Shown here piece after piece: positions 8,488-11,265 of a stretch of 63,710 bases of DNA (position 1 is the first letter of the stretch; each line of letters opens with the position of its first letter). The position numbers were made by a program, and so were the translations under genes. Source of the stretch: Deinococci bacterium (lineage in GTDB: Bacteria; Deinococcota; Deinococci; Deinococcales; Trueperaceae); NCBI GenBank assembly GCA_030149325.1, contig JASBRS010000003.1, positions 1 to 63,710 on the forward strand, in the 5' to 3' direction. The notes below the pieces were generated by a model, which was given only the letters and a program-made list of their open reading frames with translations, was not told where the DNA came from and did no database searches.

Positions 8488-10002
8488 GTGCGGAGCGTGG
8501 GGATCATCGACCTGGGCAGCAACACCGCCCGCCTGGTGGTCCTGCTGTACCGCCCCGACTACCGCTACCAGTTGCTCGACGAGCTGCGCGAGGTGGTGCG
8601 GCTGTCGGAGGGCATGGGCGAGGAGCGCATCCTGAGGGCGGCGCCCTTCCGCCGGGGCCTGGAGGCGCTGGCGACGTTCCGGAGCTACTGCGATGCCGCC
8701 GGCATCGACGACCTCCGGGCCACGGCCACCAGCGCCGTGCGCGCCGCGGCCAACGGCGCGAGCTTCGTGGCGGCAGCGCGCGAGCGGGCGGGCATCGAGC
8801 TGGAGGTCCTGGAAGGCGAGCAGGAGGCGCGCTACGGGGCGCTGGCCGTCGCCAACAGCCTCGAAGTGCGCGACGCGGTGGTGCTCGACCTGGGCGGCGG
8901 GAGCATGCAGCTCAGCCTGCTGCGCGAGCGTCGCTTCCAGGGGGGCGGAGCGTTGCCGCTCGGCGCCGTGCGCACGACCGAGGCCTTCCTCGGGAGCGAT
9001 CCACCTCGGGGCCGCGACCTGAAGGCGCTGCGCAAGCACGTGCGCGCGCTGCTGAGGCCGCGCGTCGCCGAGCTCGGCGCGGGCCTGCCCGTCGTCGGCA
9101 TGGGCGGGACGGTGCGCAACCTCGCCAACGTGGTGCAGGCGCGGACGGACTACCAGCCGGCGCTGCTGCACAACTACGTGCTGCGGCGCGAGGCGCTCGA
9201 CGAGCTGCTGGCCGAGCTCGCCGCCCTGCCGCTCGAGAAGCGGCGCGACGTGCGCGGCCTCAACCGCGACCGCGCCGACATCATCGTGGCCGGCGGCGTG
9301 GTCATCGCCGAGACGCTGGCGGCGCTCGGTGCCGACGAGGTGCGCATCAGCGGCCAGGGGCTGCGCGAGGGCCTGTTCTACCCCTACCTCTTCCCGGACG
9401 ATGATCACCTCGCCCCGGACGTCCGCGAGTTCAGCGCCTTGAACCTGATGCGCGAGTACTACGACAACCCAGCGCACAACCTCCACGTCCGCAAGCTGGC
9501 GCTGCAGCTCTTCGACCAGCTCGAGGCGCTCCACGGGCTCGGCGCGGCGGAGCGTTCGCTCCTGTCCGCCGCCGCGCTGGTCCACGACATCGGCATGGCG
9601 GTGGACTACTACGCCCACCACAAGCACGGCATGTACCTGGTGATGGGACGGGCGCTGCCCGGCTTCAGCCACCGCGAGCAGGTGTTGATCGCGTTGCTGG
9701 TGCGCTACCACCGTCGCGGGACCCCGGGCGACCAGGGCTACGCCCAGGCGTTGGAAGCGGGCGATATCGACCGGCTCACGACCCTGGCCGGCCTGCTGCG
9801 GCTGGCGGAGTACCTGGAGCGCAGCAAGGCGCAACGCGTCGACGAGGTGCGCTGCCACACCGCCGACGGCTTCCTGCAGGTCGAGGCGATCGCCCGCGGC
9901 GACGCCGACATCGAGGTGCGGGAGGCGGGCGCGCGGTCGGGGCTGCTGGCGTCGGCGTTGGGGGTACGCGTCGAGGTGGTGGCCGGGTACCCCGGGCCGT
10001 GA
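8488..10002 (+). CDS. Ppx/GppA phosphatase with C-terminal HD domain
   Basis: Exopolyphosphatase or pppGpp phosphohydrolase of the sugar-kinase/Hsp70 fold, 504 residues. The N-terminal domain (1-300) has IIDLGSNTARL and the phosphate loop VVLDLGGGSMQL. The HD-like domain (about 310-500) has VHDIGMAVDYYAHHKHG. Start GTG 8488 lies 6 nt after a CATACT -10-like box (8476-8481), so the mRNA may be leaderless. Polyphosphate and pppGpp activity cannot be separated from sequence. Confidence 0.93.
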   Translation: MRSVGIIDLGSNTARLVVLLYRPDYRYQLLDELREVVRLSEGMGEERILRAAPFRRGLEALATFRSYCDAAGIDDLRATATSAVRAAANGASFVAAARERAGIELEVLEGEQEARYGALAVANSLEVRDAVVLDLGGGSMQLSLLRERRFQGGGALPLGAVRTTEAFLGSDPPRGRDLKALRKHVRALLRPRVAELGAGLPVVGMGGTVRNLANVVQARTDYQPALLHNYVLRREALDELLAELAALPLEKRRDVRGLNRDRADIIVAGGVVIAETLAALGADEVRISGQGLREGLFYPYLFPDDDHLAPDVREFSALNLMREYYDNPAHNLHVRKLALQLFDQLEALHGLGAAERSLLSAAALVHDIGMAVDYYAHHKHGMYLVMGRALPGFSHREQVLIALLVRYHRRGTPGDQGYAQALEAGDIDRLTTLAGLLRLAEYLERSKAQRVDEVRCHTADGFLQVEAIARGDADIEVREAGARSGLLASALGVRVEVVAGYPGP

Positions 10003-10034
10003 CCGTGACGGCGGTCGGGCGCGATAATGGCGCC

Positions 10035-10649
10035 ATGGACCCCCGAGCGCGCGTCAAGATCTGCGGCATCACCCGGCCGCAGGACGCCGTCGCGGCGGAG
10101 CGCGCCGGGGCCGATGCCATCGGCCTGATCTTCGCGCCGCGCTCGCAGCGGCGGGTCGACCTCGAAGCGGCGTCCCGCGTGGTGGCCGCGGTCGGCCCCT
10201 TCGTCACGCGGGTGGGGGTGTTCGTCGACGCTCCGGCCGCCGAGGTGCACGAGGCGATCGACCGCCTCGATCTCGACGCCGTCCAGTTGCACGGCGACGA
10301 GAGCGCCGACTACGCCGAGGGGCTGCGGGCGCACGCCCGGGTGATCCGGGCCGTGGCGTTCGCGAGAGCGGTGACCCCGGAGGCCCTCGCCGACTACCCC
10401 GCCGACGCGGTGCTGCTCGACGCGCCCACCCCGGGCTCGGGGGTCGCCTTCGATTGGAGCGCCGCCGAGGCCTGGCGGGGACACCCCCGGTTGATCGTGG
10501 CCGGCGGGCTCACGGCCGCCACGGTCGGAGCCGCGGTGGCCGCCTTGCGGCCGTACGCCGTCGACACCGCCAGCGGGGTCGAGTCGGCGCCCGGCATCAA
10601 GGACGCGGCGCGCGTCCTGGCCTTCGTTCAGGCCGCGAGGGCGGCGTGA
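10035..10649 (+). CDS. trpF: Phosphoribosylanthranilate isomerase
   Basis: Tryptophan biosynthesis step PRA to CdRP; 204-residue TIM barrel. It has VKICGITRPQDA with the catalytic Cys, VQLHGDE, the central Asp (LLDAPTPGSG) and the phosphate-binding DTASGVESAPGIKD. The ATG at 10035 is chosen over the earlier GTG because GATAAT (10023-10028) lies 6 nt upstream and the protein family begins just after it. No other trp gene is in the window. Confidence 0.95.
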   Translation: MDPRARVKICGITRPQDAVAAERAGADAIGLIFAPRSQRRVDLEAASRVVAAVGPFVTRVGVFVDAPAAEVHEAIDRLDLDAVQLHGDESADYAEGLRAHARVIRAVAFARAVTPEALADYPADAVLLDAPTPGSGVAFDWSAAEAWRGHPRLIVAGGLTAATVGAAVAALRPYAVDTASGVESAPGIKDAARVLAFVQAARAA

Positions 10650-10659
10650 CGGCAGCAAG

Positions 10660-10865
10660 TTGTCCACAGTCGCGACCGGTTCTCCACAGGACTGTGGAGA
10701 ACCCTCGCGAGCGCGCCCTGGAGCGCATGAACGCCGTTTCATGTCCCAGAAAGCGCGTCCAGGACGGAACAAACTCGAAAGGTGCGCGAGGCGCCCCGCC
10801 TAACAGAAAGCGCCCGCCCTTGTCAAGGGGCGCGAGTTATCCACAGATTGCATCGGTTATCCACA
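10660..10865. promoter_or_regulatory. Cluster of five DnaA-box-like sites in a 307-bp intergenic region
   Basis: The gap 10650-10956 holds TTGTCCACA (10660-10668), TTCTCCACA (10680-10688), its inverted copy TGTGGAGAA (10693-10701), and two perfect TTATCCACA boxes (10837-10845, 10857-10865). Both direct pairs are spaced exactly 20 bp start to start, about two helical turns. The second and third sites form a 10-bp inverted repeat with a 2-bp centre. A further inverted repeat CATGAA/TTCATG lies at 10726-10743. No dnaA or dnaN is adjacent, so this could be an origin, a DnaA-titration site or a DnaA-regulated promoter. Confidence 0.75.
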
Positions 10866-10876
10866 CGTCGCACAAT
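10848..10876 (+). promoter_or_regulatory. Putative promoter of the cupin/carboxylase pair, overlapping a DnaA box
   Basis: TTGCAT (10848-10853), a 17-bp spacer and CACAAT (10871-10876). The perfect DnaA box at 10857-10865 lies inside the spacer and another ends 2 bp before the -35 element. If the promoter is real, DnaA binding should block it. The leader would be about 75 nt. Confidence 0.45.
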
Positions 10877-10956
10877 GGGCGTCGGCGAAGGCCCGCACCG
10901 CGCGCACCTGGCGCCGGTCGGGACCCGGCCGCAAGGACCTAGGGAGGATCCGTATC

Positions 10957-11265
10957 GTGAAGATCGTGACCATCTCCGAAGCTCGCCGCTTCTCGCTCGC
11001 CGAGGTGCAGCAGTCCGAACTCGTGGCCGAGGGGGACCTGAGCGTCACGCTGCTGTGCTTCGAGGCCGGACAGAAGGACGCCGACCACAGCTTCGACAGC
11101 AGCTGCCTCTACCAGGTGCTCGAGGGCGAGGTCTTGCTGCGCTACGACGGGGGCGTCGAACGCGTGGGCACGGGGAGGCTGGTCAGCGTGCCCGCCGGTA
11201 CCCGTCACCACCTCGAGAACGCCGGTGGCGGCCTGCTGGTGGTGCTCGCCACCCACGCCCGCTGA
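10957..11265 (+). CDS. Small cupin-domain protein
   Basis: 102-residue single-domain cupin. The first motif (FEAGQKDADHSFDSSCLYQVLEG) and the second (VPAGTRHHLEN) are visible. In motif 1 the usual paired histidines are reduced to one His with a nearby Asp, so metal binding is uncertain. GTG start with AGGGAGGA about 10 nt upstream. It lies 1 bp before the carboxylase gene, suggesting co-expression. Family members range from enzymes to ligand sensors, and the role here is unknown. Confidence 0.85.
   Translation: MKIVTISEARRFSLAEVQQSELVAEGDLSVTLLCFEAGQKDADHSFDSSCLYQVLEGEVLLRYDGGVERVGTGRLVSVPAGTRHHLENAGGGLLVVLATHAR

Follow-up and report, generated by a model that had tools for sequence, protein, structure and literature searches.

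In the stretch of Trueperaceae DNA analyzed here (63,710 nucleotides; hereafter, the window), DnaA boxes are clustered between trpF (positions 9999–10649, plus strand) and a small cupin gene (10957–11265, plus strand). The genes identified in the surrounding region, at about 4–17 kb of the window, encode Obg, an LCP-family protein, Ppx, TrpF, the cupin, a carboxyltransferase, GrpB, and RodA, and the question is what DnaA boxes would do among such genes. A first-pass annotation offered four options: namely, a displaced oriC, a datA-type titration locus, a DARS-type reactivation site, and a promoter controlled by DnaA.

The box cluster and its conservation in Trueperaceae

All of the five DnaA-box-like sites described in that annotation were found again as matches to TTNTCCACA within a span of 206 bp (10660–10865). 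Box 1 (TTGTCCACA, 10660–10668) and box 2 (TTCTCCACA, 10680–10688) are on the plus strand and precede box 3 (TTCTCCACA, 10693–10701) by 33 and 13 bp, respectively; box 3 is on the minus strand, i.e., inverted against box 2 as had been claimed, and forms a palindrome with it. Box 4 (10837–10845) and box 5 (10857–10865), both on the plus strand, are perfect TTATCCACA boxes and are indeed the sole exact copies of this sequence in the window. Also, the offset in both of the direct pairs (boxes 1/2 and boxes 4/5) is exactly 20 bp. In the 3.04-Mb draft genome, TTNTCCACA occurs 15 times (five in the cluster, five in the gap between dnaA and dnaN, and five as singletons), and TTATCCACA occurs five times. 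Given the genome density of TTNTCCACA, the chance of finding five copies in 206 bp is about 1e-17 for any one interval of this size and about 1e-13 genome-wide.

In 17 genomes, one of them that of the window, the cluster was found upstream of the carboxyltransferase gene, and a sequence-only profile of 211 positions was built from these. This profile matched all of the 39 Trueperaceae genomes (E ≤ 3e-14 in 37 cases), with the weakest matches in G003 (2.8e-9) and G010 (8.4e-7; a genome 67% complete); these E-values are rough, and the 17 building genomes match by construction, so that the independent evidence is provided by the other 22. The boxes are thus conserved in relatives, a check that the first-pass annotation had suggested, and their layout is nearly the same throughout the family. 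In the other 72 genomes of Deinococcota, which belong to four other families, matches were weak, partial, or absent, with the best E-value of 3.8e-8, the next of 7e-6, and none in most genomes. The best of these extra-family matches (G048:C80:51319-51470) is shorter than the family element and could be its distant relative. In the alignment of the 17 genomes, the boxes are the best-conserved part of the element, and the TGTGGA-AA core of box 3 is invariant.

The anatomy of the element was read in 30 copies. Direct boxes precede the inverted box by 13, 23, or 33 bp (34 bp in one case), which corresponds to a 10-bp lattice; the position of box 1 is conserved, and several genera lack the 13-bp convergent pair, their nearest direct box standing 23 or 33 bp away. 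The inverted box is separated from box 4 by 142–145 bp in 22 of the 30 copies and by 130, 140, and 152 bp in one copy each; in genus g8, five of the six genomes have a separation of 155–156 bp, or about one additional helical turn. Box 4 is nearly invariant in the family; box 5 is missing from some genera and, where present, follows box 4 by 20–22 bp.

As to the neighboring genes, trpF is found upstream in 26 and the cupin gene downstream in 29 of the 30 loci. The closest relatives of the cupin are annotated as Trueperaceae, Truepera, Deinococcales, Deinococcota, or the Thermus/Deinococcus group, and the cupin was detected in 34 of the 39 Trueperaceae genomes. All cupin-bearing genomes among those searched also have the element, which is nevertheless kept without a detectable cupin in G013, G024, and G003 (95–99% complete). 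The element can hence do without the cupin, and regulation of the cupin only was rejected for this reason. At the carboxyltransferase loci of the other families, furthermore, neither boxes nor cupin were seen. Family membership therefore predicts the element better than any single neighboring gene does, while the strong synteny with the cupin makes a local gene-regulatory role, or some link to the cupin, possible. In G013, the interval that separates the element from the carboxyltransferase gene holds a possible short cupin remnant (TEVLEGQGAVVG, compared with YQVLEGEVLL; L247, around 1760–1815).

Relation to the replication origin

When dnaA was located, as the first-pass annotation had suggested, it was found together with dnaN on another contig, and the gap between the two genes carries a box cluster of its own with five copies of TTNTCCACA. 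A box cluster also accompanies dnaA–dnaN in most of the relatives checked, and the dnaA–dnaN gap of G013 has 12 boxes. GC skew was sampled in relatives and is read here from G013 and G019; G016 and G007, which were sampled as well, contain N gaps (scaffolded) and were set aside, and their distances between dnaA and the cluster were not used. In G013, which is ungapped (3,260,398 bp) and is presumably Truepera radiovictrix, the samples show positive skew from the contig start onward, where dnaA is at 190 bp, and negative skew in the run-up to the contig end; the turn is thus near dnaA. The cluster is at 31.15 kb in this genome, about 31 kb from dnaA, which is too near for the skew sampling alone to separate the two. 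The description of the cluster as far from any replication gene accordingly suits the window but does not extend to G013. In G019, dnaA is not on the 638-kb contig that carries the cluster (at 520 kb), and the mean skew is positive on both sides with no flip at the cluster.

Clustered DnaA boxes and a locally AT-richer stretch (the maximum AT over 40 bp is 0.55 in the element of both the window's genome and G013) would be in line with a displaced or second origin of replication. The dnaA–dnaN gap, however, provides a better candidate in both of these genomes with its own box cluster, and its maximum AT over 40 bp, which is 0.475 in the window's genome, reaches 0.775 in G013; moreover, the skew turns near dnaA in G013 and has the same sign on either side of the cluster in G019. 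An origin at the cluster is hence very improbable, and the displaced oriC proposed among the four options is contradicted by the separate dnaA–dnaN cluster and by the skew in relatives.

A predicted promoter and a palindrome between the boxes

While the boxes and their spacing had been described correctly in the first-pass annotation, a leftward promoter signature and a palindrome, in addition to the family-wide spread, had been missed. On the minus strand between the two box groups, a −35 element (TTGACA, 10820–10825) and an extended −10 element (TG-T-TAGGCG, 10797–10802; a hexamer without the last T) are predicted with a separation of 17 bp, and the predicted start is near 10790. The leftward TTGACA-N14-16-TGnTA signature, for which five further −35 variants were admitted, was counted in 27 of the 30 copies, as compared with a mean of 0.045 and a maximum of 1 in 200 mononucleotide shuffles. 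It is at a fixed distance from box 4, and boxes 4 and 5 are near −51 and −71 of the predicted start in the window. A leftward promoter between the box groups is likely from these sequences, even with predicted −10 hexamers that have no final T, and promoter sequence would be within reach of DnaA boxes in those 27 elements. No conserved open reading frame was seen in the predicted leftward transcript. A known RNA family was rejected after a comparison with Rfam gave no match up to an E-value of 5, and so was a conserved RNA structure; RNAalifold gave just five invariant pairs, which are formed between the DnaA boxes and show no covariation.

About 28 nt past the predicted start, a palindrome of CGTCC-n-GGACG is conserved. 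In the window, it reads CGTCCAGGACGG (10756–10767) and is probably a site for a second regulator; a sequence resembling a weaker second copy, GCGCCCTGGAGCGC, is possibly present at 10713–10726. The exact palindrome CGTCCWGGACGG occurs 27 times in the genome (per-strand count) versus three times for the reversed pattern, and a crude gene call puts seven of the 19 other genomic places that were looked at (L155–L173) in intergenic DNA. Being over-represented and at times intergenic, CGTCCWGGACGG resembles the operator of a regulator with many targets.

Candidate roles of the element

Clusters of DnaA boxes away from the origin are already a known kind, and the present one, an improbable cluster outside oriC that is conserved in relatives, belongs to it in a general sense. 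Detailed knowledge of datA and DARS comes from E. coli and its relatives. In the E. coli DARS cores, opposed boxes I and II are in head-to-head contact (PMC10380432, PMC8682772); in DARS1 of MG1655 and DARS2 of another E. coli record, we found a convergent pair at 14 bp and a box 12 bp further, where the assignment of these boxes as I–III is our own. The Trueperaceae element resembles DARS1 and DARS2 in being an intergenic cluster outside oriC with a convergent pair and a direct third box. The offsets in the window are, however, 13 and 20 bp instead of 14 and 12 bp; the convergent offset is thus 1 bp shorter, the third box is farther, and some genera have no close pair but an offset of 23 or 33 bp, so that the DARS arrangement in the strict sense is not conserved. 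The element differs from DARS also in having a further box pair at a distance of about 143 bp, an internal promoter signature, and the palindrome. With datA, it shares separated groups of DnaA boxes, which are thought to meet via DNA bending (PMC10380432), but datA depends on an IHF site between its boxes, whereas the central segment in Trueperaceae has a different palindrome and a promoter signature of its own. Given that E. coli datA is governed by read-through transcription acting as a switch (PMC10950094), the internal leftward promoter might be a parallel to transcription through datA. The DnaA-box clusters (DBCs) of Bacillus subtilis are likewise located away from oriC in a non-proteobacterium, and removal of all six leads to early initiation (PMC5295017); several DBCs act together there, whereas a Trueperaceae genome usually has one element of fixed layout.

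TTATCCACA is a target of DnaA in the related Deinococcus radiodurans, where one-off boxes, e.g., TTTTCCACA, are bound about half as well (PMC7988490); binding of DnaA at the cluster is hence expected. We infer that DnaA would fill the box triad (10660–10701) and the box pair (10837–10865) on fixed faces of the helix, and the two groups might interact by looping across the intervening ~143 bp, which hold the leftward promoter and the palindromic operator. The net effect on initiation would most likely be exerted through the availability or the nucleotide state of DnaA, comparable to datA/DARS, and the internal promoter, if active, may send transcription across the triad and thereby reset the DnaA occupancy by analogy with the read-through at datA.

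The family-wide conservation, the rigid spacing, and the conserved promoter-like sequence strengthen both of the options that survive: namely, a datA/DARS-type site and a DnaA-controlled promoter. As a whole, we favor a datA/DARS-like control locus over a promoter region, a passive sink, and an origin, and a family-conserved DnaA-control locus of Trueperaceae to which DnaA binds has, in our judgment, an even chance of being the right description. A region whose main job is gene expression is somewhat less probable but a serious competitor; DnaA at boxes 4 and 5 would then activate, or both box groups would repress by looping, the leftward promoter and/or a rightward promoter of the cupin gene. 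Such regulation would account for the leftward signature kept at its distance from box 4, for the palindrome at a fixed +28, and for the cupin gene, which is directly downstream in nearly all loci and, among the searched genomes, always accompanied by the element. The predicted leftward transcript, however, offers no conserved open reading frame, Rfam match, or covarying structure, and the element survives both in genomes that have lost the cupin and at loci with no adjacent trpF. It is also conceivable, if improbable, that high-affinity boxes simply titrate DnaA with no need of a special geometry; no part of the element is better conserved than the boxes, E. coli is an established case of titration (PMC12371093), and B. 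subtilis initiates early after loss of its six clusters (PMC5295017). A pure sink would nonetheless have no need of the 10-bp phasing, the fixed 143-bp gap, the promoter signature, or the palindrome, and each element has just 3–6 boxes.

A bolder reading would be that Deinococcota have a replication-control locus of a new type, in which two helically phased groups of DnaA boxes flank an internal promoter and the palindrome of a second regulator; DnaA would be released or remodeled when the triad is transcribed, coupling initiation to the signal of that regulator. We regard this reading as rather unlikely, though less so than the passive sink. In the open-licence literature, we found neither a description of a DnaA-control locus outside oriC for Deinococcota nor the fixed two-group layout with an internal promoter signature and a palindrome in this phylum. 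A compact family-wide element, available in an apparently complete genome, would make it possible to test whether bacteria other than Proteobacteria have also evolved DnaA-control sites with an internal geometry.

Apart from the element, G013 has four near-identical triads of perfect boxes, TTATCCACAN8TGTGGATAAN23TGTGGATAA (L264–L267; G013:C1:111995-112052, 477142-477199, 2407360-2407417, and 2587613-2587670). None of the other 38 Trueperaceae genomes was found to have a triad with exactly this spacing, and these triads were rejected as copies of the Trueperaceae element because of the different spacing and the adjoining CRISPR-like arrays. Each triad adjoins an array of 36–37-bp repeats that recur about every 75 bp; the arrays are apparently CRISPR arrays, which would place the triads in or near their leaders.
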